This document shows, in pieces, positions 5,726 through 37,274 of a DNA stretch of 64,000 nucleotides. A program made the position numbers and the translations under genes. Source of the stretch: Janthinobacterium tructae (GTDB lineage Bacteria; Pseudomonadota; Gammaproteobacteria; Burkholderiales; Burkholderiaceae_D); contig NZ_CP041185.1 of the NCBI RefSeq assembly GCF_006517255.1, positions 1,240,001-1,304,000 on the forward strand, written 5' to 3'. Within the stretch, counting starts at the first letter, position 1. Every line of letters starts with the position of its first letter. The notes beneath the pieces were generated by a model. That model searched no databases, was not told the DNA's origin, and worked only from the letters and a program-made list of their open reading frames with translations.

Positions 5726-5795
5726 GCATGCCGCCTGGTCGGGCGGCATGCGCTCAGGGCACGCCGCCTGGTCGGGCGGCATGCGCTCAGGGCAC
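5726..5795. repeat. Tandem 33 bp repeat forming two hairpins
   Basis: A 33 bp unit (5730-5762) is repeated exactly at 5763-5795. Each copy carries GCCGCC and GGCGGC arms around TGGTCG. The first copy extends to a perfect 10 bp stem (5726-5735 with 5742-5751). The second copy covers the stop codon of the minus-strand solute-binding gene. It probably acts as a bidirectional transcription barrier between convergent genes. Confidence 0.7.
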
Positions 5796-6551
5796 GCCGA
5801 CGTCGTAGCGCTTGCCCAGCCGCTTCAGTTCGCCTGTCTCGATCAGGTTAGTCAATTCCTGGTCGAACTGCAGGCGCAGCTTGTCGAAAGTCGGCGAGCG
5901 GGGGAAGGCGAAATAGCCATTCTGTACTTCGATGACCTTGGGCAAAGGTTTCACCTGGCGAGCATAGCCCAGGCGGGCGATCACGGGATCGGTATTGCGG
6001 CGGTTGCTGACGAACACGTCGACGTGATTGTGCACCAGCATCTTCAAGCCATTTTCCACATTGTTGGCCACGCTGACCTGCAAGCCGGGCCGCACGCGCT
6101 CCCAGTCCGCGCCATACGCCCAGCCATTGAGCAGCACCACTCTGCGGTTCTTCAGCACGCTATAGTCGCCATCCCAGCCGAAACTGGCGTCCTGGCGCGT
6201 ATAAAAGACCATCTGGTCCTGGTAAAACGGCTTGTCGGAAAACGCCATGCTGGCGATGCGCTCGGGCGTCTTGTAGGGGCCGATCAGGATATCGGCCTGG
6301 CCCTGCACCAGCATGGCTTGCGCGCGCGCCCACGGCACCATGCGAAAACGCACGGTGTTACCCGTGCGCGCCGCCATCAGGCGCAGCAGTTCCGCGCCCA
6401 GGCCGCCATACTCGCCGCTGTTCTGGTACTCGAACACGCGCTCGAACTGCGCGCCCACGGCCAGCAGTTCCCGGGCTGGCGCCTGCGATGGCACAAGCAA
6501 CACCGGCCACAGCAGCGCCAGGGCCAGCAGGCGCCGCCCGCTTTTTCGCAT
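5787..6551 (-). CDS. Periplasmic solute-binding protein, SBP_bac_3 family
   Basis: This 254-residue exported protein has a signal peptide (about 1-26, ending SQAPA-RE) and the bilobed fold of family 3 solute-binding proteins. GGLGAELLRLMAARTG, QGQADILIGPYKTPER and FVSNRRNTDP are recognisable. The ATG overlaps the nadC stop codon by one base (TGATG), so it is translationally coupled to nadA-nadC. No permease or ATPase follows, so it may be an orphan sensor-type binding protein. The genetic link to NAD synthesis suggests a ligand related to aspartate, quinolinate or a pyridine, but this is only inference. Confidence 0.75.
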   Translation of the reverse strand: MRKSGRRLLALALLWPVLLVPSQAPARELLAVGAQFERVFEYQNSGEYGGLGAELLRLMAARTGNTVRFRMVPWARAQAMLVQGQADILIGPYKTPERIASMAFSDKPFYQDQMVFYTRQDASFGWDGDYSVLKNRRVVLLNGWAYGADWERVRPGLQVSVANNVENGLKMLVHNHVDVFVSNRRNTDPVIARLGYARQVKPLPKVIEVQNGYFAFPRSPTFDKLRLQFDQELTNLIETGELKRLGKRYDVGVP

Positions 6552-7417
6552 CAGCCGACGATGCGCAAGGAGTAATCGGTGGCCCGCACGTCCTTGGTCA
6601 GGCTGCCGATCGAGATGCGGTCCACGCCCGTTTCGGCAATCGCCCGCACGGTATCGGCATGGATGCCACCCGACGCTTCCAGCAAGGCACGGCCGTTGGT
6701 GAGGGCCACGGCGTCGCGCAGCATGTCGTTGCTGAAGTTATCCAGCAGCACGGAGACGGCGCCCGCATCGAGCGCTTCGCGCAATTGTGCCAGGGTTTCC
6801 ACCTCGATCTGCACGGGCACGCCCGCGTCGAGGTTACGCGCGTTTTCCAGGGCCTGGCTGACGCCGCCCGCCGCCGCGATATGGTTTTCCTTGATCAGGA
6901 TGCCATCGTACAGGGCCAGGCGCTGGTTCTTGCCGCCGCCGACGCGTACCGCATACTTTTGCGCCAGGCGCAGGCCCGGCAAGGTCTTGCGCGTGTCCAG
7001 GATGGAAGCCCTGGTGCCGGCGATCACATCGACATACTGGCGCGTGGCGGTGGCGACCGCAGACAGCAGCTGCAGGAAATTGAGGGCGCTGCGCTCAGCC
7101 GTCAGCAAGGCGCGCGCGGGCGCCTGAATCGTGCAGACAACGCTGTCGGCCGTCATCATGTCGCCTTCGGCGTAATGCCAAACGATATCGATGCTGCGGT
7201 CCAGGCTTTTCATGATGCCTTCGAACCACGGCGCGCCGCACAGCACGGCCGCTTCGCGCACGATGACGCGGGCCGTGACGATGTGGTCGGGCGGCACCAG
7301 TTCGCCCGTCAGGTCGCACTGGCCCACGTCTTCCAGCAAGGCGGCCAGCAGATTGCCTTCGAACGCGCGCGCCAGGGCCGGATCGAAAGGAGCGAAAGAA
7401 TTAACGAGGGTACTCAT
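6551..7417 (-). CDS. nadC: Nicotinate-nucleotide pyrophosphorylase (quinolinate phosphoribosyltransferase)
   Basis: This 288-residue enzyme converts quinolinate and PRPP to nicotinate mononucleotide, CO2 and PPi, the third step of de novo NAD synthesis in the cytoplasm. All family motifs are present in order: [19 protein letters not shown] (substrate phosphate and carboxylate binding), KENHI, the acidic QIEVE, LLDN and EASGGI. The start codon overlaps the nadA stop by four bases (ATGA), so the two are coupled. Length is typical. nadB is not in the window. Confidence 0.95.
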
Positions 7418-8547
7418 GCTGGACCGATTCCTTGGAACAATGTGGTTTCTTTTGCCAGGTCCGCACCCGGCTTGAGGCCCGCCTTCTTGGCGGCGGCGAA
7501 GTCGAGCATGCGATTGATCGAGCGCACGGCCAGCTGGCCGACGGCGGGATCGACGTGGATTTCATTGTGCATGTTTTCCAGCGTTTGCGCCAGGTTCAGC
7601 AAGCCGTTCATGGCCATCCACGGACAGTGCGCGCAGCTTTTGCAGGTGGCGCTGTTGCCGGCCGTGGGCGCTTCGATGAAGCGCTTGCCCGGCGCGGCCG
7701 CGCGCATCTTGTGCAGGATGCCATTGTCGGTGGCGACAATAAACGTGTCCGTATCCATGGTTTGCGCGGCCGCAATCATTTGCGACGTCGAGCCCACCAT
7801 GTCGGCCAGCGCCACCACGTTGGCGGGCGATTCCGGATGCACGAGGACCTTGGCTTGCGGATACTCTTCCTTGAGCAAATCGAGTTCGATGCCCTTGAAT
7901 TCGTCGTGCACCAGGCAGCTACCCTGCCACAGCAGCATATCGGCGCCCGTTTCCTTCTGGATATACGAACCCAGGTGTTTATCGGGTGCCCAGAGGATTT
8001 TCTTGCCCTGCGCATGCAGGTGGGCGACGATGTCGAGGCCGATCGACGACGTCACCATCCAGTCGGCGCGCGCCTTGACGGCCGCGCTGGTGTTGGCGTA
8101 GACGACGACCGTGCGGTCCGGATGGGCATCGCAGAAGGCCGTGAATTCGTCCACCGGGCAACCGAGGTCGAGCGAACAGGTCGCGTCGAGGTCAGGCATT
8201 AATACGGTTTTCTCGGGGCTGAGGATCTTGGCCGTTTCGCCCATGAAGCGCACGCCGGCCACGACCAGGGTCTTGGCCGGATGGTCGCGCCCGAAGCGGG
8301 CCATCTCCAGGGAATCGGAGACGCAGCCGCCCGTGGCCTCGGCCAGGTCTTGCAGGTCAGCATCAACGTAATAGTGGGCAACGAGCACGGCTTCGCGCTC
8401 GATCAGCAGGCGCTTGATGCGCGTGATCAGTTCGGCTTTTTCAGCCGGGGAAGGCGTCGCTGGCGTGCGTGCCCATGCGTGGGCAGTGCAGCTGGCTCCG
8501 TCTTGTGGATGTTCATACTCGACGGATTTGATGGCTAAAGTTTGCAT
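7414..8547 (-). CDS. nadA: Quinolinate synthase NadA
   Basis: This 377-residue [4Fe-4S] enzyme condenses iminoaspartate with dihydroxyacetone phosphate to quinolinate. The cluster cysteines are visible in [17 protein letters not shown] and the C-terminal CKSCAHC segment. [14 protein letters not shown] is the N-terminal family signature. The ATG at 8547 ([13 protein letters not shown]) was chosen because the frame further upstream is low-complexity and unlike NadA. No strong ribosome site precedes it. It is the first gene of the nadA-nadC-solute-binding operon, and the REP-like palindromes lie upstream. Confidence 0.93.
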
Positions 8548-8659
8548 GGCTGTGTCAAACAAAAACGGGATAGACCGGCACGAACGCAATGAAGCTGGTG
8601 CGCCGGAACGAAAGGACCGCGGCGCGTCGGTGTGGGGCTGGGTGGCTGGCGTTGTCATA

Positions 8660-8773
8660 TCGGACTACGCTGCGCCTCGGCGGCCCCGCTAATCCGACCT
8701 ACGCGACCTACGCGACCAACCCGGGCAACTCACCCTGACGTAGGTCGGATTAGCGCACAGCGCGTAATCCGAC
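8660..8773. repeat. Pair of inverted REP-like palindromes
   Basis: GCTAATCCGACCTACG at 8688-8703 and its exact reverse complement at 8739-8754 face each other across 35 bp. The right copy continues as a hairpin (GTCGGATTA at 8744-8752 with TAATCCGAC at 8765-8773). A degenerate left partner begins around 8662. The GTAGGTCGGATTAG...TAATCCGAC form is that of widespread extragenic palindromes. It lies between the nadA promoter region and the end of the ABC-F gene. Confidence 0.7.
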
Positions 8774-8792
8774 ACAACGTTACCCTACATAA

Positions 8793-10391
8793 TTAATCAA
8801 TCCCTTGGCTTCTGAGGTAATCCTCATAGTTGCCGCGGTAATCGACCACTTCATCTTCCTTGATCTCGATGATGCGGTTGGCCAGCGAGGACACGAATTC
8901 GCGGTCATGCGAGACGAAGATCAGGGTGCCCGCGTATTTTTCCAGCGCGATGTTCAACGATTCGATCGATTCCATGTCCATGTGGTTGGTCGGCTCATCG
9001 AGCATCAGCACGTTGTGGCGGCCCAGCATCAGCTTGCCGTACATCATGCGGCCCTTTTCACCACCGGACAGTACCTTGACGGCCTTTTTCACATCGTCGC
9101 CGCCGAACAGCAGGCGGCCCAGGATGGAGCGCACGGCCTGGTCATCGTCGCCCTCTTTCGTCCACTGGCCGATCCAGTCGGTCAGGTTAGTGTCCTTGGC
9201 GAAATCTTCCGTCGGATCTTGCGGCATGTAGCCCACGTTGGCGTTTTCCGCCCACTTCACGCGGCCCTGGTCCGGCTGCAGGCCGGCGATGTCGCCCGCA
9301 ATGCAACGCAGCATGGTGGTCTTGCCGGCGCCGTTGGCGCCGATGATGGCGATGCGCTCGCCCGCTTCGACCATGATGCTGAAATTCTTGAACAGCTGGC
9401 GGTCAAAACCTTTCGAGATGTTCTCGACTTCCACAGCCAGGCGGTGTAATTTCTTTTCGCCGTCGAAACGCACGAACGGATAGGCGCGCGACGATGGCTT
9501 GATGTCGTCGACCTTGATTTTTTCGATCTGCTTGGCACGCGATGTCGCCTGGCGGGCCTTCGATTTGTTGGCGGCGAAGCGGCGCACGAATTCCTGCAGC
9601 TCGGCAACCTTGTCTTTCGCTTTCGCGTTGTTGGCCAGCTGCTGGTTGCGCGCCTGGGTCGAGGCGAACATGTATTCGTCGTAGTTACCCGGGTAAATCT
9701 TCAGGGTGCCGTAGTCCATGTCGGCCACGTGGGTGCAGACCTGGTTCAGGAAGTGGCGATCATGGGAAATGATGATCATGGTGGAGTTGCGCTCGTTGAG
9801 CACGTCTTCCAGCCAGCGAATCGTGTTGATATCCAGGTTATTCGTCGGTTCGTCGAGCAGCAGGATGTCCGGATTCGAGAACAGCGCCTGCGCCAGCAGC
9901 ACGCGCAGCTTCCAGCCTGGCGAGACATTGCTCATCGGGCCTTGATGCAACTCGATGGCGACACCGGCGCCCAGCAGCAGTTCGCCCGCGCGCGATTCGG
10001 CCGTGTAGCCGTCGTATTCGGACACTTTGCCTTCCAGATCGGCCGCCTGCATGTAGTCGTCGTCGGTCGCTTCCGGGTTCGCGTAGATCGCGTCGCGTTG
10101 CTGGATGGCGGCCCACATTTCCGTGTGGCCCATCATGACCACGTCGAGCACGCGCATGTCTTCAAACGCGAACTGATCCTGGCGCAGCTTGCCCAGGCGC
10201 TCGTTGGTATCGAGCATGACATTGCCGCCCGATGGGTCCAGGTCGCCGCCCAGGATCTTCATGAACGTCGACTTGCCGCAGCCGTTGGCGCCGATCAAGC
10301 CATAGCGGTTGCCGTCGCCGAACTTGACGGAGATATTCTCAAACAATGGCTTGGCGCCAAACTGCATCGTAATATTTGCGGTTGATAGCAT
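8793..10391 (-). CDS. ybiT: ABC-F family ATPase, YbiT-like
   Basis: This 532-residue cytoplasmic ABC-F protein has two ATPase cassettes and no membrane segments. ABC-F proteins bind the ribosomal E site and modulate translation. The first Walker A (GANGCGKST, 34-42) and the second (GANGAGKTT, about 354) are intact. Two LLDEPTN/MLDEPTN Walker B regions and a LSGGEKGR signature are also seen. The N-terminus ([20 protein letters not shown]) and C-terminus ([11 protein letters not shown]) match E. coli YbiT closely in length and sequence. The inter-cassette linker is Lys/Arg-rich. Confidence 0.92.
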
Positions 10392-10615
10392 GTGATATTG
10401 GGTCTTTATTCAGTTAAAACAGCTAGTTAAGTACTTTTCTCCCATTATACAGCACCCACCCTCTTCCACTCTATAGTAGCCCGGCGAGAGCACTCTGAGC
10501 AAATGTGGAGAAATACAGGCAGCAGATGATGGCAAGAAAATACCATTGCCGCAGTTCCATTTAGCAGATACCCTGCGCGGTATCCGTTTCCCACTCATCA
10601 CCTCGCAGGCATCAC
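10392..10615. other. Intergenic spacer between divergent ybiT and DUF2939 genes
   Basis: About 220 bp of lower-GC sequence holds the promoters of both neighbours. I see no strong box pair, repeat or RNA structure in it. Confidence 0.5.
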
Positions 10616-11158
10616 TTGAAAAAAATCACCATCGCCGCCGCCGTGGCCGTCATTGCCGTCGCCGCCACCGCCTACGCTTCGCCGTACTACGCCTTGCACC
10701 AGATCAAGACCGCCCTGGCCGAACGCAATGCCGAAGCCCTGGCCGGGCACGTGGACTTCCCCGCCCTGCGCGCCAGCGTCAAGGCGCAGCTGGAGGCCAG
10801 CATGGCGCGCAGCATCGAGGCGACAGCCGGCAGCGGCAACCCGCTGGCCGCCCTGGGCCAGTCGATCGCCAGCGCCATGCTGGGCAAGATGGTCGACACC
10901 ATGGTCTCGCCCGCCGGCGTCGTCGCGCTGGTCAACAAAAGCGCCGTCAGCCCGCAAGCAAGCGACACGGCAGATGCGCCGGCCGATGGCGCACGGAAGA
11001 AGGCCGACTATTCGGCAGGCTATGCCGGCGTAAACACCTTCGTCGTGCGCGCCAAGGATGGCAATGCGCAGGAAGGTGCACTGGTCCTGCAGCGCCATGG
11101 CGTGTGGGGCTGGAAACTGAGTTCGATCGAGATTGCGTCGGCGATGGCCGGCCGCTAG
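10616..11158 (+). CDS. DUF2939 family exported protein
   Basis: This 180-residue protein has an N-terminal hydrophobic signal or anchor (about 1-22) and the DUF2939 pattern SPYYALHQIKTALAERNAEALAGHVDFPALRASVKAQL. The C-terminus holds a conserved GVWGWKLSSIEI strand. The family function is unknown. The start is a TTG preceded by AGG at 10607-10609; the codons after it read KKITIAAAVAVIA, a typical export signal, and no ATG fits. It is probably periplasmic or inner-membrane anchored. Confidence 0.7.
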   Translation: MKKITIAAAVAVIAVAATAYASPYYALHQIKTALAERNAEALAGHVDFPALRASVKAQLEASMARSIEATAGSGNPLAALGQSIASAMLGKMVDTMVSPAGVVALVNKSAVSPQASDTADAPADGARKKADYSAGYAGVNTFVVRAKDGNAQEGALVLQRHGVWGWKLSSIEIASAMAGR

Positions 11159-11208
11159 CAGCGCGGCAGTGGCAGCCTGCGGGGGCTACCCTGCCCGCCC
11201 CCCCCCGA

Positions 11209-12543
11209 TCAGAAGGTCATCGGCAACCTGACCGAGATGGAAACATCGGGCGTATCGCGCGTCAGACCGGCGCCCACCGACACATTCAAGCTCCGGTCCT
11301 TGCCAAGGCGATACGAAAACCCCATCAGCAGGGTACCCAGCTGCGTACGCACGGAACCGGGCACGGTCATGCCATTTTGACGCGTGCGTCCAACGCTGCT
11401 GTGATCGTAGCCCAGACTGAGCGAGGCCTTTTCATTCAGCGCCAGACCGATGCCGAAATTCACGCCGAAAATCTTCCCTGGCTCGATGGTGCCGAGCGGT
11501 TCGCGCACGCCATTGAGCACCAACCGGCTCACATCAGTGCGCTTGAAGCCGTGCAGGTAGCTGATGCTGCCAAAGAATACGGCTGGATCGGAGGGAAACA
11601 GCCAGGTCAGGCTGGGCTGCAGTGAATAGAAACCGGAGCCGGTGGGCAAGTCCAACGGCAAGCCCGTCCCGGTCGCGTTCTCGCCCACGCAGCGCTGCGT
11701 ACAGTCCGTGATGACCTCGAACGGATCGCGTCCTGTGCGCGACTTGAAGCGCAGGCCGGCCACGTAGTATGGCTTGTCGGCGCCGCCATTGTTCAGTTGG
11801 TAGCGGGCGGCCACCTCGACATCGCCCAAGGCGCGGCCACTGGTGTCGAACACCCGCTCCGAGGCCGTGCCGGTAAACAGTTCGCGACTGACGGTGGCAT
11901 CGGAGCGATAGACATATGGCACCCTGGCTTCGACTTCAAGACGGTTGCTCAAGCCGGTGCGCACGGTCAGTGCGCCGGTCAGGGTATTGCGCTTGACTTC
12001 GCGCACATCGATCAAGCCGATCAGCAAGGCGGGAATAATGGTGTAGCCGACCAGGGCGACCCGATTGCTGGACGAGTAACCGAATTGCATCGACGGTTCC
12101 AGCACGTAGCGTCCCTTGGGCGTCAGCACGCCGGGCTGTTCGAACAGGGGAGCCACTTCGGGCGGCCGGACAGGCGGGCTTGGCGCCTGCCCCACCGGCT
12201 GGGGCGTCGGCGGTGGCGCCTGTGGCGCGGAGCCGGCGTCCTGGATGTCCGCCAGCGACAAGTACGCCGCCCGCAAACCCGTGCCCCGCTGCCGGGCCAG
12301 GCGGTTATTGTCGACAGGTTCATTGCCCTGCAGCACATCGATGCGGCGCTGCTGTTCATGCATCGATGCGCGCAGCGCCTCCAGCAGGTGCCGCTGTTCG
12401 GCCAATTGCGCTTTCAGGCTTTCCAGCTGCGCCGCCAGATCGTCCTGGCTGGCGCCCGGCGCTTGCTGGGCCTGAACGGCTGCACACAGCAGGATAGCCG
12501 ACACACCTGCCGTACCAAATCGCAATAAGTAAAGATGCCGCAT
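11209..12543 (-). CDS. FapF-like outer-membrane beta-barrel with N-terminal coiled coil
   Basis: This 444-residue protein has a signal peptide (about 1-26, AVQA-QQ), a heptad-rich coiled coil (about 35-75), a Pro-rich linker (about 100-130) and a long beta-barrel of alternating strands ending in a terminal Phe. That is the architecture of FapF, the trimeric outer-membrane pore that exports Pseudomonas functional amyloid. GGAGAG sits directly before the ATG at 12543. It is the last gene of a five-gene operon with a C39-like peptidase and three exported proteins. A pair of Cys (about 279 and 283) lies in one loop. A generic outer-membrane transporter is the alternative. Confidence 0.65.
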   Translation of the reverse strand: MRHLYLLRFGTAGVSAILLCAAVQAQQAPGASQDDLAAQLESLKAQLAEQRHLLEALRASMHEQQRRIDVLQGNEPVDNNRLARQRGTGLRAAYLSLADIQDAGSAPQAPPPTPQPVGQAPSPPVRPPEVAPLFEQPGVLTPKGRYVLEPSMQFGYSSSNRVALVGYTIIPALLIGLIDVREVKRNTLTGALTVRTGLSNRLEVEARVPYVYRSDATVSRELFTGTASERVFDTSGRALGDVEVAARYQLNNGGADKPYYVAGLRFKSRTGRDPFEVITDCTQRCVGENATGTGLPLDLPTGSGFYSLQPSLTWLFPSDPAVFFGSISYLHGFKRTDVSRLVLNGVREPLGTIEPGKIFGVNFGIGLALNEKASLSLGYDHSSVGRTRQNGMTVPGSVRTQLGTLLMGFSYRLGKDRSLNVSVGAGLTRDTPDVSISVRLPMTF

Positions 12544-12659
12544 AGTCTCTCCCGATGACAAGCCCTGCCTATCAGTAGCCGGCCCTGGCAGCCCAACCGC
12601 AATGACCCGGTGCTACTGCACGATGCCGCCAGGGGAATCCGGGCGGCTTGCTGAAAACC

Positions 12660-13163
12660 CTATCTGGGACCTGCAACACTGCCCAGTGCATTTTGCAAGG
12701 TGTCCTGGAAGTTCGCCAGCTTCAGCAATTGCAGACTGTTCACGCTGCTATTGATGATCGTCTGGGTACGCAAGACCTGGTCATTCAAGCTGTTCTGGAT
12801 CACGGTGCCGGCCATCGTTTGCGCCATCGGGCCTGGCGAAAACACGTTGCCGGCGCCGTTCTGCAGGACAGTCATCGAGGCGACTGCCGTACGCGCCAGA
12901 TTCGCTTCCTCGACGCTCAGGTGCGCCAAGTCGGCAATCGTGAACGCCACGCTCGATACCACGCTGCCATTGACGCTGACCAGGCGCTCTATCCCCAACG
13001 ACAGGCTCAAGCCACCTGGCATGTCGAAACCGCCCCGTGCCTGCTCCAGCGTTTCCTCGCTGACCGGCGTCCAGCCCGCTGTTGGCGGCTCGGCGCCGGC
13101 ATTCTGCGCGGCAGCAAGCAGGCACGCCAGGCTGGCAGCGGCAAACCGCTCTTTCTTGTGCAT
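12660..13163 (-). CDS. Small exported protein of Fap-like operon (FapE-like position)
   Basis: This 167-residue protein has a signal peptide (about 1-24, NAGA-EP). A short LEQARGG segment (39-45) resembles a double-glycine processing site. The Asn/Gln/Ser-rich C-terminal half includes VIQNSLNDQVLRTQTIINSS. The VIQNS motif is shared with the other two exported proteins of the operon. A strong GGAGG precedes the ATG at 13163, which was preferred to the upstream ATG at 13193. Position between the peptidase and the barrel matches fapE. It is probably a secreted minor component; no enzymatic motif is visible. Confidence 0.65.
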   Translation of the reverse strand: MHKKERFAAASLACLLAAAQNAGAEPPTAGWTPVSEETLEQARGGFDMPGGLSLSLGIERLVSVNGSVVSSVAFTIADLAHLSVEEANLARTAVASMTVLQNGAGNVFSPGPMAQTMAGTVIQNSLNDQVLRTQTIINSSVNSLQLLKLANFQDTLQNALGSVAGPR

Positions 13164-13192
13164 ATATCCTCCAGCGTGGCGTTTGCCCGCCA

Positions 13193-13930
13193 TTAAAAAT
13201 TCCCGCCGTCATTCTTCGGCATGGTGAGCTGATCGAGCCCGCTGCGGCTGATCGCCAGTCCCAGTGGCGCTTGCGGCGCCGCGCGCCAGTCATCGGCATC
13301 ATTGAAGCGGGCCGCCTGCATTGCCCCCTCGGTCGCCACCGGGCCAGGTGCGGACGGCGTCACGCGTCCATGGATCACGAACAGCAAACGGCCCTGCCAG
13401 ATCGCCTCGAAACTGGCGCGCGGCATGGCCCGCGTGCCGCCGGCCGGATCGCCGATCAGCACGCGGCTCTGGCCCAGCCCCTTGACCACGACAAAATGCC
13501 GGTAGCCTTGCTCGGCCACCAGCACGATGGCGGGAAAGCCCGCCTCTGCCAACTTATCCAGCGGCAACTGAAACCCGTCGGCCAAAAAGCCACGACTGGC
13601 AAGAAAACGCTTGATATCAAGCAAGGAAAATCCCTCTTTGCGTATCTTTTGCTGATCACCTTGCTGGTACATTTGCTCAAAAACAAACTCTTCCGTCACT
13701 GGATCGGCATAATGATGGGTCAGCAAGGTGGCCACCGCGGCGGAACCGCAACTGAAGTCGTATTGCTGGTGCAAGGTGCGCTGGAAACGCGCTTCGCGCA
13801 TGCTCACCAGCGGCACCTCGAAGCGCGTGCCAAAGGCACCGATATCGGCCGCGCTGGCGCCTGGGGATGCCACGCCGCCCAGCAAGGGCAGGCATAGCAT
13901 GAGCAACGAGCATGTGCTGGGCGTGGCCAT
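13193..13930 (-). CDS. C39-like cysteine peptidase of Fap-like operon (FapD-like)
   Basis: This 245-residue exported protein has a signal peptide (about 1-28, ASA-AD) and a bacteriocin-processing-type C39 peptidase fold. Catalytic Cys61 lies in DFSCGSAAVATLL, His145 in GYRHFVVVKG and Asp161 in LIGDPAGG, so the triad is complete. It stands alone, without the ABC transporter parts normally fused to C39 domains, as in FapD of Pseudomonas. It starts two bases after the preceding stop codon. The likely role is periplasmic processing or gating of the operon's exported substrates, possibly at double-glycine sites. Confidence 0.8.
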   Translation of the reverse strand: MATPSTCSLLMLCLPLLGGVASPGASAADIGAFGTRFEVPLVSMREARFQRTLHQQYDFSCGSAAVATLLTHHYADPVTEEFVFEQMYQQGDQQKIRKEGFSLLDIKRFLASRGFLADGFQLPLDKLAEAGFPAIVLVAEQGYRHFVVVKGLGQSRVLIGDPAGGTRAMPRASFEAIWQGRLLFVIHGRVTPSAPGPVATEGAMQAARFNDADDWRAAPQAPLGLAISRSGLDQLTMPKNDGGNF

Positions 13931-13932
13931 GC

Positions 13933-14364
13933 CTAGCGCAACTGCAAATTGATGATGGTGGCGTTCTGGATCAGCACATTGGCGCCCGAATTCTGAATGA
14001 CGATCGGGATGCCGGAAGCGTTGGCAAATGCGGCGCCATCGATCGTGTTGGCGCCCGTACTGACGTAGCTGGCCGAGTTGCCAGTGACAAAGCCACTCAG
14101 CCGCGCTTCATTGCTAACCGTCTCGGTGCCGCCACGCGCCTGGTCCAGGGCGGATGCGCCAGCGGCCCGGCCAAGCCCCCCCGCAAAAATCCCATCGACC
14201 GTCAACGGCATCAGCGCGGTCAGCGCCGTGGTCGGAGCAGCAATCGGCAGACTCAACTCTGGCCCGGCAAGCAAGGGCAGCGCCCTTGCTTCCTGTCCAG
14301 CCATGGCACCTGTGGAAAGACAGGCCAGGCTGGCACAGCATATCGAATGAAAAAAAAGGCGCAT
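13933..14364 (-). CDS. Small exported protein of Fap-like operon (FapA/B-like position)
   Basis: This 143-residue protein has a signal peptide (about 1-22, GAMA-GQ), a hydrophobic Ala/Pro-rich middle and a LDQARGG segment (73-79) like that in the other small protein. The C-terminal beta-rich tail (119-143) reads IVIQNSGANVLIQNA then IINLQL. The tail motif recurs in the glycine-rich first gene. AAGGGG precedes the ATG at 14364; ATGs at 14370 and 14382 are alternatives. It could be a fibre nucleator or minor subunit, by analogy with FapB. No homologue was recognised with certainty. Confidence 0.6.
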   Translation of the reverse strand: MRLFFHSICCASLACLSTGAMAGQEARALPLLAGPELSLPIAAPTTALTALMPLTVDGIFAGGLGRAAGASALDQARGGTETVSNEARLSGFVTGNSASYVSTGANTIDGAAFANASGIPIVIQNSGANVLIQNATIINLQLR

Positions 14365-14392
14365 GCTCATCCCCTTGTTCATGACTTGCGAT

Positions 14393-14452
14393 GCTCCGCC
14401 GCGGCATTGCCACGGCGGAGCCTGACACTAGACTGACAAGCAGCCTAGTGTC
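14393..14452 (-). promoter_or_regulatory. Two stacked hairpins after glycine-rich gene
   Basis: GACACTAG (14424-14431) pairs with CTAGTGTC (14445-14452), which includes the stop codon of the glycine-rich gene. GCTCCGCCG (14393-14401) pairs with CGGCGGAGC (14413-14421). With no T tract these are more likely mRNA-stabilising or partial-termination structures. They would raise the first gene's yield over the rest of the operon. Confidence 0.6.
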
Positions 14453-15992
14453 CCACTGCCAGATTGGCCTGCACCGTCACACTTTGCTGTATCAGCGAAG
14501 AGATGCCGCTGTTCTGGCTGATGACCAGCAAGCCTGCCGCCGACTGCGCGGTACCGCTCATGGTGTTGGACATATCGAACGCACCGGCATTGACGGCCAC
14601 CGCACCGCCGGCACCACCCGAGCCGCCCGCGCCGGAACCGCCGGTTGCCGCGCCGCCCGTGTTGGTGCCACCGCTACCGGCGGCGCCACCACTATTGCTG
14701 CCACCGCCAGCACCGCCAGCACCGCCAGCGCCAGCAATGGCGCTGCCGTTTGATGGCGAGCCATTGCTGGCGCTGCCATTGCTCGAACTGCCGCCAGCCG
14801 CACCGGCGCCACCCGTGTTTTGCGCCATCCCGCTGCTGCCGCCATTGCCGCCCGCAGCACCAGCGGCACCATTGCCGCCCGTGCTGGTGCCGCCCGCGCC
14901 GGCGCCACCGGCACCACCGGTACCACCAGTTGCAGCGGCCCCGGCGCCGCCCGTGCTCGTCAACGCGGCGCCAGCACCACCGGCACCGGAGCTACCGGCA
15001 CCGCCTGCGGCCCCCGCGCCACCGGTATTGGTGCCACCGGCACCGCCGGCACCGCCCGTCGCCGCACCACCGTTGGCTGTGGCGGCACCACTACCGAAGT
15101 TCTTGGCCAGGCTACCGGTACTGCCGCTACCGCCGGAGCCGCCAGCGGCACTGTGGGTGTTGCCGCCATCGCCGCCTGGACCGCCGAAGGCTTTGCCGCT
15201 ATCGCCACCGTTACCGCCTGTCGTGCGACCAGTATCGCCGCCGGAGCCGCCCTTGGCCGCACCAGCCAGGCCGCCCTTGCCACCGTTGCCGCCATAGACA
15301 TCGCCGCCGGCAGCACCACGACCACCTGCACCACCCTTGCCGCCAGCGCCAGCGTCCCCGCTGCTGGCGTTCTTGGCCAGTCCGCCCGCGCCACCGGCCC
15401 CGGCAGTGCTATCCCCCACCATCGCCGCGCCATTGATGGCACTGCCATTCCTGGCGCTGCCCCCTTTCGCACCCGATGCGCCGTCGCCACCGATGGCCGC
15501 GCCGCCCGAGCCGCCCTTGCCATAGGCATCGCCCCCCTGTGCGCTGCCGCCTATGCCCCCCTTGCCAGTGCCACCGTTGGTATTGCCATTATTGGTGGCG
15601 ACATTGCCGATATCACTGACCTTGTTGCCCGACACCGCGCCACTCAGGGTGCTCGCTGCCGTCGCCGTCGATGTATTGAAGGCATTTGCCACGTTACTGG
15701 TGCTGGTACCGCCATTATTTGCCGCAGATGCGCCCAGCGCCGTGGCTTTCGCGTTGCCGCTGCTATTGTTTTGCCCCGTGCTCTTGTCGTTATTCTGGTC
15801 CGAGTTATTGTCTTGCGAGGCGCTGGAATGCGCGCTCGCCCCGGGTCCGGAACCAGACTGTGTCGTGGTGTTGCTCGCCGTCTGGGTATTGTTGCCATTG
15901 ACATCGTCGACCTTGGTCGAGCCACTGTTCTGGGCATGAGCGCTGAATCCGAAGGCCAGCGCGATCGCTGCCACGATGAGAGTTTTTTTCAT
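14445..15992 (-). CDS. Very glycine-rich exported protein, probable fibre subunit of Fap-like system
   Basis: This 515-residue protein has a signal peptide (1-20, AHA-QN) and an Asn/Ser/Thr-rich segment (about 21-130). A long run of Gly-Gly-X repeats (about 130-455) carries GGAGGAGG, GGNG and GGSG blocks and looks like PE_PGRS proteins. The C-terminal tail includes LLVISQNSGISSLIQQSV. AGAGGA lies eight bases before the ATG. It is the first and best-translated gene of the operon, behind a sigma-54 promoter. Pseudomonas FapC is Gln/Asn-rich instead, so this would be a compositionally different substrate. A surface adhesin is the alternative. Confidence 0.7.
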   Translation of the reverse strand: MKKTLIVAAIALAFGFSAHAQNSGSTKVDDVNGNNTQTASNTTTQSGSGPGASAHSSASQDNNSDQNNDKSTGQNNSSGNAKATALGASAANNGGTSTSNVANAFNTSTATAASTLSGAVSGNKVSDIGNVATNNGNTNGGTGKGGIGGSAQGGDAYGKGGSGGAAIGGDGASGAKGGSARNGSAINGAAMVGDSTAGAGGAGGLAKNASSGDAGAGGKGGAGGRGAAGGDVYGGNGGKGGLAGAAKGGSGGDTGRTTGGNGGDSGKAFGGPGGDGGNTHSAAGGSGGSGSTGSLAKNFGSGAATANGGAATGGAGGAGGTNTGGAGAAGGAGSSGAGGAGAALTSTGGAGAAATGGTGGAGGAGAGGTSTGGNGAAGAAGGNGGSSGMAQNTGGAGAAGGSSSNGSASNGSPSNGSAIAGAGGAGGAGGGSNSGGAAGSGGTNTGGAATGGSGAGGSGGAGGAVAVNAGAFDMSNTMSGTAQSAAGLLVISQNSGISSLIQQSVTVQANLAVGH

Positions 15993-16061
15993 TGCAGTTT
16001 CCTCTTTAAAAGTTAATCAGGATGCTGGCACCAGACAAAAGCGTCGGGTCCACAGCTACAC

Positions 16062-16077
16062 TGCAAATTTAGTGCCA
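16062..16077 (-). promoter_or_regulatory. Sigma-54 promoter of the Fap-like operon
   Basis: On the minus strand the sequence reads TGGCAC-N5-TTGCA, an essentially perfect -24/-12 element. Transcription would start near 16050, giving a leader of about 58 nt before the glycine-rich gene. The gene immediately upstream encodes a GAFTGA-containing sigma-54 activator. Confidence 0.85.
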
Positions 16078-16180
16078 GCAATAAAAAATTTGGCCAAGTC
16101 ATTGAATTACAAAGCCTTATTCGATGCTCTTCGGCTTGCATGGCATTCCCCTCGGAAACTTGGCAAACAAAACACGGAAA

Positions 16181-16311
16181 ACTGTCACAGTCGTGCGCCA
16201 CCGGCTTTTCCGTCACGGCTTGCCAAAATAGAGATATCTGCGCAAAATCAAGCACTTGCAAGATGCCATGCCGCTCCCGCGCCTGTCTCAATGCTGTTAC
16301 ACCGTTACAGC
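16181..16311. promoter_or_regulatory. Candidate activator binding sites upstream of the sigma-54 promoter
   Basis: Two dyads share the half-site CTGTYAC. One is ACTGTCACAGT at 16181-16191, and the other is GCTGTTACACCGTTACAGC at 16293-16311 (14 of 19 positions symmetric). They lie about 105 and 220 bases upstream of the -24 box, a normal distance for enhancer-binding proteins. The rest of 16078-16359 is non-coding. Their role is inferred from symmetry and place. Confidence 0.5.
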
Positions 16312-16359
16312 TGCGACTATCCGCACGCAGGGCAAAGGACTTCCTCTTGGGCGCCAGGT

Positions 16360-17706
16360 TCAACATTCAATATTGAGCTTCTTGATCATCCGGTACAGCG
16401 TCATGCGCGACACGCCCAGGTCGCGTGCCGCCTTGCTGATATTGCTGCCGGCACTGGCCAGGCTGGCCTGCACGGCGTCACGGTCCGCACGCCAGCGAAT
16501 ACTGCCGAGTGCGACATCGGCGCCCGGCGCGTGCGCAACTGACAGGCCCAGGTCCTCCGGCAGGATCGCCCTGCCTTCCGCCATCACCATGGCGCGCCGC
16601 ACCCGGTTGATCAATTCGCGCACATTGCCCGGCCAGCTATGGCTGCAGATCGCTTCGACGGCGGCGTTGCTGAAGCCGCGCACCAGCGGCGCCCGTTCCG
16701 ATACATAGGTGGCAAAAAAATGGTTTGCCAGCAACATCAAGTCTTCCCTCCGTTCGCGCAAGGGAGGCACATCGAGCGCCAGCACGTTGAGCCGGTAGTA
16801 CAAATCTTCCCGAAACGTCCCTTGCTTCACCGCCTCCAGCAAATTGACATGCGAGGCTGCAATGACGCGCACGTCGACCGGAGTACTGTGCGTGGCGCCG
16901 ACACGGTAAATCGTTTTTTCCTGCAGAAAGCGCAGCAAATTGGTTTGCAAGGAGAGTGGCAGGTCGCCTATTTCGTCGAGAAATACCGTGCCTCCGGCCG
17001 CCGACTCGATCAGGCCCCGCTTGTCGCAGGTGGCTCCCGTGAATGCGCCCCGTTGATGGCCGAACAACTCCGATTGCGCCAGGCCAGCCGGAATCGCGCC
17101 GCAGTTGATGGGCACAAATGGACCTGCCGCGCGCGCGGAATGGACGTGTATGGCTTGCGCTGTCAACTCCTTGCCGCTACCCGACTCGCCCCAGATCAGC
17201 ACCGGCGCGCTGACACCGGCAACCTTCAGGATCTGGTGCCGCAGACGGCCAATGGCGACGCCACTGCCCTTGAGCGACATATCGGCCTGTTCCAGCGCAC
17301 ACAGAGGCACGTCCGGCATCTCGCGCAAAGAGGCGTAGCCATAGGCATGGCCCAAGGTATGCCGCAGGCGCAGCATATCGACAGGCAAAGTGTGATAATC
17401 ATAGCAATGGTCGCGGACCAGGCGCCGGCATGCGGCCGTCTGCAAGGCGCGTGATGGGAAAATGCCCACCCATTGCATCTCCCAGTGCTGATGCAAGAAA
17501 CTGTCGATTTCTCCCAGTCCGTCGAGCGGCGAAATCAGGATACCAACCGGAAAAGCCTGCGTGCGCAGCGCGCGTGCCGCAGCCGCCAGGCCGGTCACGC
17601 TGCAGACTTTCCAGCCTTCCCATGCCACCCCAAACTGCCGCATGTCTGCCTCATGCAGCAAACCATTGCCACTCAAATCGATACACAATAACTGTCGTTT
17701 CAACAT
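16360..17706 (-). CDS. Sigma-54-dependent transcriptional activator, VpsR type
   Basis: This 448-residue enhancer-binding protein has an N-terminal receiver-like domain without the usual phospho-acceptor motif (about 1-125; its layout resembles Vibrio VpsR). An AAA+ domain follows, with Walker A GESGSGKE (173-180), the sigma-54 contact loop GAFTGA (220-225), Walker B VFLDEIGD (241-248) and the DVRVIAASH region. A Fis-type helix-turn-helix closes it (about 420-445, [16 protein letters not shown]). VpsR itself lacks GAFTGA, so this copy can work with sigma-54. GGAGG precedes the ATG at 17706. It probably activates the adjacent Fap-like operon, perhaps in response to c-di-GMP. Confidence 0.87.
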
Positions 17707-18154
17707 CCAGCCTCCAAATTGACTGTGATCATCAGAAAACATCACGCCACCGCGTCGCGCAAGAAGAAGCGCCCTGCCGGGCAGCCAGATAGGCTGTCGC
17801 ACTCATGCAAGCCTGTCTTGCTTTCCGGAATGATAAAAGCCGATGAGCAGACTACTGCGGATGCGACACCATCACTGCCACCTGACTGCAGTAAATGGAA
17901 GCCTTAACAATCAATGACTTAAGATAAGGAGTGGCAAAGAAACACCCGCGATGGAACAGCCCTCAGGCAGGGTAGCGAGATTTGTGTATATGTGTGACAA
18001 TCTTATTGATGTATATCACTGCGCTACTAAAAAATACTTTCTTTTATAGAGAGTTTGTATCTTCTGCCACACTGAATTTTCCACAGTCATCAAAGGTGCG
18101 GCTAAGCCGTTCGACATCTTTCTTATCAAGCAAGATGCACCTCCACGAGATCCC
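17707..18154. other. Long intergenic region between the activator gene and an exported hypothetical
   Basis: This 448 bp stretch is unusually AT-rich on its right side (17980-18130). It must hold the divergent promoters of both neighbours. A small hairpin CCCTcaggcAGGG lies near 17960-17972. I see no convincing gene, riboswitch or repeat. Confidence 0.5.
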
Positions 18155-18808
18155 ATGCCGACAAAACATGCTTTGATGCTGGCCATCGCCGTCTTGACCA
18201 ACACGGCCCTGGCTGCCGCCCCGCTTGAGCAAGCCGGGCGCAGCCACTCTGTCGCCGCGCGCATGCAGGCGGAAACGTCCAGCGCCGCCGATCCCGATGC
18301 TCCCGCGCCGCTGCCCGTGCCCAGCGACATTTCGCTGGCCGAGCTGGAGCGCCGCTGGGCGCTGGGACAGGCGCAGGCCGCCGAAAAACACTTGAGCAGC
18401 GCGCTCGACCCGGCCGCGCTGACGGCCCTGGCGCAGCAGATGCAATGCATGGATATCGTCGGCGTGCAGGCATTTGGCTACCCGCTGGAGCAAACGCAGC
18501 CCACCGTGCTGAGCGGCGCGCACCTGCTGGCGCGCTGCCCGGACAGGGCCTATGTGACGATCACGGCGATGTCGATGGCGGGCAAGTCTGGCAAGCGCGT
18601 CACGATTTCGCCGCAGTCATTCAACCAGACCATGGATGGCAAGCCCGCGCGGCGCCTGTATTACAAGGCGCCCAACGGCCGCCAGAAGGAAACGCTGACC
18701 ATCATCGATGGCAGTTATGTGTATGCGCTCGAGTACTGGTCGCTCGATGACAGCCAGCAGAGCGGCATGGTCGGCATGCGCCGCATGGAAACATTGACGT
18801 TGCCATAA
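18155..18808 (+). CDS. Exported hypothetical protein
   Basis: This 217-residue protein has a signal peptide (about 1-21, ALA-AA) and an Ala/Pro-rich linker. A globular domain of about 120 residues contains two Cys (about 98 and 128) that could pair in the periplasm. The C-terminal part reads RRLYYKAPNGRQKETLTIID, suggesting a beta-rich domain. It has no recognised family. It is divergent from the sigma-54 activator gene across a long AT-rich spacer, so it might belong to the same regulon, but nothing in the sequence proves this. Confidence 0.6.
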   Translation: MPTKHALMLAIAVLTNTALAAAPLEQAGRSHSVAARMQAETSSAADPDAPAPLPVPSDISLAELERRWALGQAQAAEKHLSSALDPAALTALAQQMQCMDIVGVQAFGYPLEQTQPTVLSGAHLLARCPDRAYVTITAMSMAGKSGKRVTISPQSFNQTMDGKPARRLYYKAPNGRQKETLTIIDGSYVYALEYWSLDDSQQSGMVGMRRMETLTLP

Positions 18809-34646: not shown

Positions 34647-36128
34647 CACCCCTTTAAAGGTGCGTCGTCACAGATGAGATAAAACCTGCACTCTTTGTAG
34701 CAAACATCATCTAACTGGGACAGGAGGAAACTGCCATGATGATGAATGCTGTGGTATCGCACTGCGCAAAAATCAGCCCGCTGACTGTAATGGCAAGGCT
34801 GGCGCTGCAACGTGCCCTCGATCCTGCTTGGGTCGATGCACTTTTCGAGCGCGAACGTGGCGCCCAGTACCAGAGGGAGCTACTGTTCTCGACGACAGTC
34901 GAACTGATGTCCGTGGTCGCAGTTGGGCTGCGGCCATCGCTTCACGCTGCAGCGCAGGCTTACCCTGATTTGCCTGTTTCGGTGCAAGCTTTATATGACA
35001 AGGTCAAGCGTACCGAGCCGAACCTGGTACGGGCGCTGGTCACCGGCAGCGTCGAGCGCCTTGGAGATGTGATCACGCCATTTTTGCAGGGGAATGCACC
35101 GCTGGTTCCAGGTTACCGCACCCGAATCGTGGACGGTAACCATTTGCCTGCAAGCGAAAAGCGGTTGAAGCCTTTACGCGCCTTTCGCGGCGCCGCAATG
35201 CCTGGCCAGTCCCTTGTGGTGTATGACCCTGATTCGGGCCTGGTCGTCGATATGGAGCCTTGCGAAGATGCACACTCGCAGGAACGCGCCGTGATGCCGC
35301 CGTTACTGGAGCGTTCGCATCCGGGCGACCTGTGGATTGCTGATCGCAACTTCAGCACGCGCATGATCCTGTCCGAATGGGATCGCCGTGGGTGTGCCTT
35401 CATCGTGCGTGAGCACGGTCGTACGCCCAATCCGGCACCGCTCGACGAGCTGACATATCGAGGGAGAATCGCGACCGGCGCCGTCTTTGAACAGTGCGTT
35501 GCCATCCCTGGAGCTACAGGACAGAAGGTAGCATCACGTCGCATTGAACTGCAACTTTACAAGCCCACTGACGATGGCGAAATGATTCTCCGATTACTGA
35601 CGAATCTACCAAAAGAGCATTTCAGCGCACGCGCCATTGCTCGCCTATACAGCAAGCGCTGGCGGATCGAGACAATGTTCCAGCGGCTCGAATCGGTCTT
35701 GCACAGTGAAGTCAAGACTCTCGGACACCCGCGCGCAGCCTTGTTCGCGTTCGGTATCGCGATCCTGGCCTATAACGTGCTGACTGTCTTGCAGTGCGCG
35801 GTAAGCGCCGCGCACGACCTAGTTGCCAGCGGCATTGAGCTATCGCCGTTTTATGTGGCCGTGGAGGTGCGAGCGCACTATGCCGGCATGGTGATGGCTG
35901 TGCCAACCAAAGCATGGCAGCGTTACGACGCCATGTGTGCATCAGAGCTGAGCAAATTACTGCTTCAGATTGCCGCTTACGCCAAACCAAAAACGCTGCG
36001 CAAACACCCTCGCGGCCCGAAAAAAACAGTGAAAAAAGGCTACGTGGCCGGCGCTGTTGCGCGACGCCACGTATCAACGGCACGGGTATTAAAAGACGGG
36101 GCTGTCAATGTACACCTTTAAAGGGGTG
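34647..36128 (+). mobile_element. Complete IS4-family insertion sequence, 1482 bp
   Basis: Near-perfect terminal inverted repeats begin CACCCCTTTAAAGGTG at 34647 and end with the complement at 36128. Weaker pairing continues further in toward the ACA at about 34671. The element is flanked by an 11 bp target duplication, a length typical of the IS4/IS231 group. It carries one intact transposase gene, so it is probably recent and still active. Confidence 0.88.
34736..36121 (+). CDS. IS4 family transposase
   Basis: This 461-residue DDE transposase has catalytic Asp in RTRIVDGNHLP and in DLWIADRNFSTR, and the Y-x2-R-W-x-I-E motif (YSKRWRIETMFQRLES) supplying the catalytic Glu. An N-terminal helical DNA-binding region and a basic C-terminus complete it. 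Codon use is less GC-biased than the neighbours. The frame has no stops or shifts. The gene lies wholly inside the inverted repeats, and its last codons enter the right one. Confidence 0.92.
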   Translation: MMMNAVVSHCAKISPLTVMARLALQRALDPAWVDALFERERGAQYQRELLFSTTVELMSVVAVGLRPSLHAAAQAYPDLPVSVQALYDKVKRTEPNLVRALVTGSVERLGDVITPFLQGNAPLVPGYRTRIVDGNHLPASEKRLKPLRAFRGAAMPGQSLVVYDPDSGLVVDMEPCEDAHSQERAVMPPLLERSHPGDLWIADRNFSTRMILSEWDRRGCAFIVREHGRTPNPAPLDELTYRGRIATGAVFEQCVAIPGATGQKVASRRIELQLYKPTDDGEMILRLLTNLPKEHFSARAIARLYSKRWRIETMFQRLESVLHSEVKTLGHPRAALFAFGIAILAYNVLTVLQCAVSAAHDLVASGIELSPFYVAVEVRAHYAGMVMAVPTKAWQRYDAMCASELSKLLLQIAAYAKPKTLRKHPRGPKKTVKKGYVAGAVARRHVSTARVLKDGAVNVHL

Positions 36129-36139
36129 GCTCTAAGACA
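36129..36139. repeat. Right 11 bp target-site duplication of the IS element
   Basis: This is an exact copy of 34636-34646. It contains the stop codon (36132-36134, minus strand) of the DUF418 gene, which the insertion therefore left intact. Confidence 0.85.
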
Positions 36140-37274
36140 GCCGCGCCAGGCGGCGCCACAGCGCCTCCATGGGACCTTGCCTGAAATGGCGCAGCCAGTA
36201 ACGGCTTAATAGCACCTGCCCCGCCATGATCGCTACTGCCAGGCCCAGCATCTCGGCCGGACGCAGTGTTGCGCCCCAGCCCAGGCCCGGCCCCTGCAGC
36301 AGCCAGGTGCCGATCAAGGATTGCAACAGATAATTGCTCAGCGCCATGCGTCCCACGGGTGCCAGCCATGCGCCCAGCCAGCGCAGCATGCAGGGACCGG
36401 CCAGCATCAGCGCGGCCACATAGCCGGCCGCCAGCAAGGGGCCACCGGCGAACAGGCCCACTTCGAACAGGGCCGCGTCCAGCACGATTTGATACGGATC
36501 GGCTACCTGCCACGCGATGGCGCCCGCCGCCAGCAGGTTGAACGGCAAGCCCACGCCCAGCCCTACGGCGCACACGCGCCGCCACAGCCGCTGGTGGCGT
36601 TGCGGCTGCGTCAGCCAACCGCAACGCACGGACAAGATGCCCAGCAAGAACAGCACGATGATATGCGGCAGCATGACGATGGCATACAGCAGCGAGACGA
36701 GAAAATCGTTGGCGCGCAGCCTGGCCACGGCCCACGCGCTACCCTGCGTGTAAATCGCGTAGCGCTCCGCAAAGCCATGCAGGTCGCGCGCGATGTCCGG
36801 CGCGCCACCCTGCTGGCCCACGGGAATCAACAAGCACATGAATAATAGAAAACCGGCCGCCACCAGCCAGGCGCGGTTGCGCACGCGGCTGAGCCTGGCA
36901 GATGCCAGCGGCAGGACCAGCATGCCGGCGACGGCATACGAGGTCAGCACGTCGCCGCTCCAGATGAGGAAACCGTGCAGCAGGCCAAACACCAGCAACC
37001 AGCGCAAACGGCGTTTATAAGCCGCTTGCGCCGCTTCCCAGCTGCCCAGCTGGCGCTGCAGGGAACGTGTCTGCAGGGCAAAGCCGGCGCCAAACAGAAA
37101 CGCAAAGATGGGATAGAACTTGAATTGCGCCAGCGCCGCGACCAAAAAAATGACAAGCTGGTCCAGCACGGGCGGCTGCGCCGGCAAGGTGCCGTAACGC
37201 AAGGAAAGCGTGCCCCAGGCAAAGCCCCAGATATTCACCAGCAAGATGCCAAACACGGCGATGCCGCGCAGCAC
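36132..37274 (-). CDS. DUF418 family inner-membrane protein
   Basis: This polytopic protein of at least 380 residues has about eight to ten hydrophobic segments. It carries the DUF418 C-terminal signature (GRMALSNYLLQSLIGTWLL). The N-terminal LDVLRGIAVFGILLVNIWG motif starts before the GTG at 37274, in the same open frame. The real start therefore lies upstream, but no ATG is available; a CTG at 37328 overlapping the LD-carboxypeptidase stop is one candidate. The function of the family is unknown. The stop codon is formed at the MITE boundary. Confidence 0.75.
   Translation of the reverse strand: MLRGIAVFGILLVNIWGFAWGTLSLRYGTLPAQPPVLDQLVIFLVAALAQFKFYPIFAFLFGAGFALQTRSLQRQLGSWEAAQAAYKRRLRWLLVFGLLHGFLIWSGDVLTSYAVAGMLVLPLASARLSRVRNRAWLVAAGFLLFMCLLIPVGQQGGAPDIARDLHGFAERYAIYTQGSAWAVARLRANDFLVSLLYAIVMLPHIIVLFLLGILSVRCGWLTQPQRHQRLWRRVCAVGLGVGLPFNLLAAGAIAWQVADPYQIVLDAALFEVGLFAGGPLLAAGYVAALMLAGPCMLRWLGAWLAPVGRMALSNYLLQSLIGTWLLQGPGLGWGATLRPAEMLGLAVAIMAGQVLLSRYWLRHFRQGPMEALWRRLARLS

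Follow-up and report, generated by a model that had tools for sequence, protein, structure and literature searches.

The window examined here is the whole 64,000-nt stretch between positions 1,240,001 and 1,304,000 of the 6.31-Mb single-contig genome of Janthinobacterium tructae (NZ_CP041185.1), and our subject is a cluster on its minus strand, from 17,802 to 11,209. Read along that strand, its six genes encode a sigma-54 activator, a Gly-rich protein, a small exported protein of 149 residues (S149), a C39 peptidase, a second small exported protein of 177 residues (S177), and an outer-membrane barrel. We consider the cluster a relative of the Fap apparatus, with a FapF-like pore, a FapD-like C39 peptidase, and a FapE-like protein, which likely exports the Gly-rich protein as a surface fibre. 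The peptidase we predict to cleave the FapE-like protein on the C-terminal side of a conserved Gly-Gly. The probability of this reading we put at about 0.68. The sequence itself establishes how the genes are ordered, the homology of the pore and the peptidase, a conserved leader motif, and which genomes of the genus carry or lack the whole module. Open reading frames (ORFs) were called mechanically, and export signals by eye and with a simple script. The features are as follows:

16360..17802, minus strand: sigma-54-dependent activator with a VpsR domain, an AAA+ domain, and a Fis-type helix-turn-helix (Pfam Sigma54_activat 2.5e-65, VpsR 2.9e-12, HTH_8 3.2e-07)
16062..16078, minus strand: sigma-54-like -24/-12 promoter CTGGCACTAAATTTGCA, 69 nt upstream of the Gly-rich gene, with one mismatch to the consensus
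14445..15992, minus strand: Gly-rich exported protein, 515 aa, likely the major subunit (open frame; signal-peptide-like N-terminus)
14601..15572, minus strand: PGRS-like Gly-rich stretch of that protein, about residues 141-464 (composition; Gly at a lag of three mildly over-represented)
14448..14594, minus strand: its Gln/Asn/Ser C-terminal module, residues 467-515 (profile match to the S149 C-terminus)
13933..14382, minus strand: S149, exported, 149 aa (leader-like motif and one FapB-like C-terminal repeat)
14128..14163, minus strand: double-glycine leader-like motif of S149, ending R83-G84-G85 (L..xRGG pattern)
13193..13930, minus strand: C39 cysteine peptidase, FapD-like, likely periplasmic, 245 aa (Pfam Peptidase_C39 1.8e-20; Q55, C61, H145, D161)
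12660..13193, minus strand: S177, exported, in the FapE position, 177 aa (its profile aligns with that of FapE in the leader region)
13029..13064, minus strand: double-glycine leader motif, residues V44 to G55 of S177, with the predicted cut after G55
11209..12561, minus strand: FapF-like outer-membrane protein, with a periplasmic coiled coil at 39-77 and a beta-barrel at about 152-445 (sequence and predicted fold; likely start 12543)

The five genes that follow the activator had been described, in an earlier reading made from the sequence alone, as lying on one strand and as encoding a Gly-rich protein with a signal peptide and two small exported proteins. This description stands: all five are open on the minus strand, and the signals are there by eye and by script. 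The likely true start of S177 is the ATG at 13163, which gives 167 aa, a length common in its closest homologues.

The regulator and the five genes form a module of about 7.07 kb that is gained or lost as a whole. In all three operon-free congeners examined (L290-L292), the window sequence is followed to 11,148-11,160, then come 145-171 bp, and the match resumes from 18,232 onward, with 88-96% identity on both sides; the missing stretch is one clean 7.07-kb gap, from about 11,160 to 18,232. The sigma-54 activator belongs to the module because it lies within this gap. An operon-bearing congener (L293) is collinear with the window from 5,787 to 17,784 at 90%, and the genome of the window has a single FapF-like locus and a single C39 locus of the module's kind. 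The promoter at 16078-16062 is the sole match in the window with at most one mismatch to the consensus; when two mismatches are allowed, there is no excess of matches across the window (11 found against 11.5 expected).

The barrel is a relative of FapF by sequence and by predicted fold, as had been proposed from its coiled coil and beta-barrel. It matches NCBIfam FapF over nearly its full length (4.3e-42; 144.4 bits, short of the curated cut-off of 700 bits) and the sequence of the FapF crystal structure (PDB 5o67) with an E value of 1.5e-27. An AlphaFold2 model, made as a monomer from 20 sequences (the over-long ORFs of L131 and L183 were left out and L157 was added), is of moderate confidence, with a mean predicted local distance difference test (pLDDT) score of 70.9 and a predicted template modelling (pTM) score of 0.60. 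It has the FapF-type coiled coil plus barrel, in the form of a long helix at residues 39-77 and strands from 152. In a fold search with this model, FapF chains occupy ranks 1-18 (best E 1.9e-20, TM score 0.81 by target length) and a COG4313 channel comes next; DSSP counts 15 strands in what is a monomer model, against 12 in FapF. The linker of Pseudomonas FapF carries a GG (PMC5557850, PMC5135000). The window linker, residues 79-145, has none, and the idea of the linker as peptidase target is therefore not transferable to the window system and was ruled out here.

The peptidase is a stand-alone C39 enzyme (Pfam 1.8e-20) with a complete triad, Q55, C61, H145, and D161 being invariant in 18 homologues. 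The nearest NCBIfam family is FapD (5.1e-37, 127.3 bits, below its cut-off of 330 bits), followed by FilB (8.3e-32, 110.7 bits), so that the triad seen in the sequence-only reading and the FapD likeness it proposed were both borne out. Its model has a mean pLDDT of 75.4, with block means of 89-95 over residues 61-190, and the nearest folds are the peptidase domains of ComA, PCAT1, and LahT; no FapD structure turned up, and the comparison was made only with other C39 domains. The window peptidase shares with these domains the fold and the leader consensus. Unlike them, it is not part of an ABC (ATP-binding cassette) transporter, but stands alone with a Sec-like (general secretion) signal beside a FapF-type pore, and it is likely located in the periplasm.

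Relatives were collected in two sets. A scan of named genomes gave at least 584 confirmed peptidase relatives among 596 stretches, of which the best 80 were kept; the nearest among them by peptidase is Janthinobacterium sp. TND4EL3, at 88% identity. A second set of 60 loci comprises 38 of the window's type (type A) and 22 classic Fap loci. A tree of 75 peptidases was built from 16 of the 80 named-set loci (those whose number is a multiple of 5, one peptidase each) and the rows of the 60-locus set above 200 bits; L080 and L098 are below 200 bits and lie outside it. Type A forms one clade of 50 rows (support 100/99), FapD another of 17 rows (99/98), and Fil-like peptidases a third of five rows (100/100). 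Window-type peptidases thus do not fall inside the FapD clade, and the grouping of type A with Fap is weak (82/44).

These clades bear directly on whether the cluster is simply an ordinary Fap operon that has diverged, with the Gly-rich protein as FapC, S149 as FapB, the C39 peptidase as FapD, S177 as FapE, and the barrel as FapF. The D-E-F-like genes in Fap order, the homology to FapF, FapD, and FapE, and a single FapB-like repeat in S149 speak for it. We nevertheless hold it to be unlikely, since the peptidases form a clade of their own, classic Fap genes and the window-type system coexist in single genomes (at least G311, with L101 and L116; G134, with L079 and L094, where only FapF was seen; G235, with L082 and L093; and G268), the NCBI cut-offs are missed, and FapC repeats are not detected with FapB and FapC profiles in the Gly-rich protein. 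The cut-off test is a strict one, because many classic Fap loci, those outside the Pseudomonas type, also miss the FapF cut-off; of the 369 genomes surveyed in the class, 69 have a match to the FapF family and none passes. From its sequence, the window system is one that would work like Fap and yet lies outside the classic Fap operons, because clade, cut-offs, and FapC repeats all fail. The parts list of the Pseudomonas fap operon, which the cluster had been said to hold, is present for D, E, and F, along with S149 and its one FapB-like repeat, while orthologues of FapC and FapA are not among the parts established.

In summary of the likenesses, the window system shares with Pseudomonas Fap the FapF-like barrel with its coiled coil, the FapD-like secreted C39 peptidase, and a FapE-like protein with the same leader, and a sigma-54 activator-like gene is found in the fetched stretch of 18 of the 22 Fap loci. 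It differs in its separate peptidase clade, in RGG in place of RG[R/K], in a main substrate that is Gly-rich (or Asn/Ser/Asp-rich) and has no detectable FapC repeats, and in the single FapB-like repeat of S149. A secreted C39 peptidase and a related barrel are also found in the putative pilus system Fil, although the window proteins miss the NCBI cut-offs for FilB (110.7 of 475 bits) and FilC (58.6 of 630 bits). Fil-like peptidases form their own clade, none above the FilB cut-off, and, unlike the window system, the Fil-like loci L234 and L235 have exported neighbours with another leader-like motif (TGQ.G or SGQ.G) and, beside them, a further large exported gene.

The residue-level prediction turns on S177. 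Its leader has the features of C39 substrates, namely hydrophobic residues at -12 and -7 and Gly-Gly at -2 and -1, and the motif likely marks a C39 cut site, predicted after G55. The site is GG in 113 of 115 homologues and AG in two. Across 27 diverse proteins with a mean column identity of 18% (the window's and 26 relatives, chosen for clean starts from 34 rows, omitting L066, L069, L070, L073, L081, L086, and L112), the only invariant columns are M1, the two glycines, and a Gln-Asn pair. A profile over the 110 sites fitting L..xRGG reads W-15 (80), V/L/M/I-12 (98), L-7, M/L/A-4 (88), R-3, GG, and F+1 (96), where L at -7 and R at -3 are part of the pattern that defines the sites. The five others are L073 (start missing, RGG present), L084 (IQGG), L118 (M at -7, RGG), and L126 and L170 (both RAG).

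Downstream of the predicted signal-peptide cut, the motif follows at a median distance of 29 residues. Where a signal peptide was callable (82 of 114 S177 proteins, 86 of 112 S149 proteins), a loose form of the pattern occurs in 78 and a strict form in 56 of the 82 S177 proteins, against 14 and 0, respectively, of 637 other signal-peptide-like ORFs of the same loci. The PCAT1-type leader consensus is L(-12)xxxE(-8)L(-7)xxxxG(-2)G(-1), in which L-7 and L-12 meet A55 and I59 of PCAT1 in a hydrophobic knot (PMC6959990). The PCAT1 residues A55 and I59 align with G100 and L104 of the window peptidase (numbers in the aligned chain are three higher than those in the paper), within a GFS(L/M)LD stretch common to both peptidase clades. 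Among the S177 homologues in the matches listed (120 of 177), none has a Pfam domain, source names are "hypothetical" or "uncharacterized" wherever shown, save one (P0084), and many of the closest are from Janthinobacterium.

C39 peptidases usually serve the export of bacteriocins, cutting at GG (PMC5557850), and one could therefore take the two small GG-leader proteins for toxins and the cluster for a bacteriocin- or microcin-like exporter. We rejected this as highly improbable: there is no ABC transporter among the six genes of the module, peptidase and substrates carry Sec-like signals, and C-terminal modules are shared, the two small proteins being alike at both leader and C-terminus and S149 resembling the end of the Gly-rich protein.

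The link to Fap lies in the position between fapD and fapF, that of FapE, which S177 fills. The S177 profile matches FapE with a score of 57.5, against at most 13.9 in 40 column-shuffled controls, over 37 columns that cover the leader and about 20 residues beyond. In the classic FapE leader (e.g., ELSDEELGGLRGRY), the final Gly is swapped for Arg or Lys, and RG[R/K] is found at 25 of 26 visible sites. Nineteen FapE matches of at least 50 bits in the 60 loci gave 17 RG[R/K], one TGK (L091), and one site that is cut off (L090); further sites, in L242, L274-L277, L278 (two copies), and L279, are RG[R/K] in eight of eight. Loci L274-L277 are from the four genomes with a FapF above the NCBI curated cut-off and, for that reason, are likely of the Pseudomonas type. 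Matches below 50 bits in the 60 loci were dropped, those below 25 bits in the further loci look like FapB (L243, at 21 bits, is outside the count), and the sites in L087, L089, L090, L091, and L108, which the leader pattern missed or misplaced, were read by eye.

The target of FapD was called "unclear" in 2017 (PMC5557850) and "yet to be determined" in 2018 (PMC6173800), and a 2025 review presumes the FapE N-terminus and part of FapF to be its targets (PMC12822426). According to the 2017 paper, FapC secretion depends on the active-site Cys of FapD. Its authors recognised no canonical C39 site in the Fap proteins, with GG and GA motifs in FapE flagged as possible ones, and in mass spectrometry FapE alone lacked peptides from its first roughly 70 residues (PMC5557850). 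A leader motif shortly after the FapE signal peptide agrees with that result. The new element here is the leader in S177 together with its altered form in FapE, which we put forward as a candidate site of cutting by FapD-type peptidases. With S177 bearing a textbook double-glycine leader at the very place where that of FapE is altered, a prediction at the level of single residues can be made for both systems.

As an explanation of the Arg/Lys at -1 of FapE, differences in the peptidase were considered and set aside: six columns differ cleanly between the two clades at a 75% threshold (63, 73, 96, 117, 118, and 186), but none of them is an obvious acidic pocket in FapD. That residue, and the existence of C39-like domains that are inactive chaperones (PMC6173800), could be taken to mean that these are fibre or adhesin systems in which the GG merely docks and the C39 domain acts as a chaperone without cutting. 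This we regard as quite improbable, since the catalytic residues are invariant and FapC secretion in Pseudomonas needs the active-site Cys (PMC5557850).

The substrate had been described as PGRS-like rather than Gln/Asn-rich, which holds for the middle of the protein only. Residues 141-455 are 42.5% Gly; the last 50 residues are a Gln/Asn/Ser module common to S149. The PE_PGRS proteins of mycobacteria likewise have a Gly-rich low-complexity stretch, a likeness of composition only. Gly pairs at a lag of three are 1.28 times the expectation over residues 141-455 (maximum of 500 shuffles, 1.24); this excess is mild, and a polyglycine-II helix was set aside. The C-terminus matches the S149 C-terminus profile with 50.4, against at most 16.7 in 40 column-shuffled controls. 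The S149 C-terminus in turn matches one FapB repeat (probability 74%; 38.1 against at most 18.5 in controls), although its gene position differs from that of fapB; an assignment of S149 to FapA was rejected, the match being limited to the leader (16 columns).

At 84 of the 112 S149 places a candidate main substrate was found, the rest (including L112 and L082) having none or one that was filtered out; a Gln-containing C-terminus was partly a condition of selection. At least 20% Gly is present in 78 of the 84, and the other six (L085, L086, L115, L117, L121, and L122) are Asn/Ser/Asp/Thr-rich with the same kind of C-terminus. That the composition of the passenger varies while the end is kept suggests that this end, and not the Gly-rich stretch, is an assembly or export signal.

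In the working model we favour, the sigma-54 activator would turn the operon on. VpsR-type regulators respond to cyclic di-GMP, and this one possibly does too. All five products would pass the inner membrane through Sec. In the periplasm, the peptidase groove would receive the leader helix (V-12, L-7, M/L/A-4) of S177, and probably that of S149, and the enzyme would cut after Gly-Gly, which may license or start export through a trimeric coiled-coil barrel. Lacking such a leader, the Gly-rich protein would follow and assemble outside through its C-terminal Gln/Asn/Ser module, with S149, bearing a related module, as nucleator and the Gly-rich stretch as shaft or spacer.

It is important to remember that several results weigh against the reading of the cluster as a Fap-like fibre exporter. 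Of the 76 named-set loci with both a barrel and a peptidase gene, 45 have the two in the same orientation and 31 in opposite orientations. Only 22 of the 38 type-A loci of the 60-locus set showed a sigma-54 activator within the stretch retrieved. S149 carries L..xRGG in only 83 of 112 proteins, the others having mostly AG, SGG, or RG-like endings, and where its signal is callable only 46 of 86 have the loose and 7 of 86 the strict pattern. The Gly-rich C-terminal module has no match to FapB, FapC, or FapE profiles above controls (2, 10, and 4 of 40 shuffles were as good), so that homology to any of the three was rejected and direct homology gives no ground for assuming that amyloid forms. Since the usual cut site of C39 peptidases is GG or GA (PMC5557850), the Arg/Lys of FapE may mean that the Fap register is shifted or that the motif only docks. 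Finally, a leader-like motif in FapA is in tension with the published lack of FapA processing in Pseudomonas by mass spectrometry (PMC5557850). This motif (e.g., ELSDSDFAGVTSG) was seen in FapA, the first fap gene, of L274, L275, and L277, and in several of L095-L107.

The gene set itself is widely conserved, beyond what chance would give. The order S149, C39 peptidase, S177, on a single strand and inside 1.5 kb, is kept in 77 of the 80 named-set loci and in 29 of the 34 type-A loci with a C39 match in the 60-locus set; the order fails in L181, L198, and L203 (which has no S177 match) in the former and in L077, L080, L109, L110, and L123 in the latter. All four genes, barrel included, are found in 75 of 80 and 29 of 38 type-A loci, respectively. 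The best 80 include Janthinobacterium, Duganella, Massilia, Rugamonas, Variovorax, Polaromonas, Cupriavidus, Ralstonia, Paraburkholderia, Pandoraea, Dyella, Pseudoxanthomonas, and other genera. Within the genus, 13 of 40 genomes encode S177, and within the order 39 of 300 have a barrel relative; the former count includes the genome of the window, the latter that genome and classic FapF. Relatives are frequent among Burkholderiales and extend to other Gammaproteobacteria (in the GTDB sense). If our reading is right, this adds a common, likely fibre-secreting system with a Gly-rich main subunit, of use to biofilm biology and protein materials.

Relatives of the FapD and FapF parts are known in general, because fapD-fapF pairs have been noted in five further phyla (PMC6173800) and FapD and FapF as members of larger families (PMC3792158); a count of 1172 fap clusters in GTDB used profiles requiring the FapB/C repeat (PMC12392863). 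In the full-text literature searched, which included few subscription papers and no bioRxiv preprints, no account of the window system or of the FapE leader was found. Together with the separate clade and the scores below the FapF and FapD cut-offs, this agrees with the suggestion of a divergent, possibly undescribed system.

A wider proposal, for which we see even odds, is that secreted stand-alone C39 peptidases (FapD, the window's, and probably the Fil type) are periplasmic double-glycine leader peptidases whose substrates are addressed in two stages, first by a Sec signal and then by a C39 leader. The FapD site in FapE would be L-x4-L-x2-(M/L)-R-G-(R/K), and the window system would be the GG form, perhaps ancestral, with leader cutting as a gate and main subunits of differing composition (polyglycine or Asn/Ser/Asp-rich) ahead of one C-terminal assembly module. 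Small exported neighbours with such motifs suggest a general Sec-plus-C39 leader route.

Some further observations can be added. Related motifs after the signal peptide (e.g., LNDTGLEQATGQAG and LSDSALDNITAG) were seen in exported neighbours of stand-alone C39 peptidases in L234, L235, L239, and L241, and the endings in these neighbourhoods, Fil-like and other, are TGQAG, ITAG, and AAGG. One genome (G345) has six separate FilB-family peptidase matches, and one Fap locus (L278) has two FapD-FapE pairs. In L242 (G268), a stretch of about 12 kb contains classic genes for FapF, FapE, and FapD as well as the end of a type-A cassette; in the Massilia loci L153 and L155, the S149-C39-S177 cassette occurs twice, about 7 kb apart. 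Of the 64 one-kb steps of the window, that at positions 36001-37000 has the highest AT skew, a strong 0.33.

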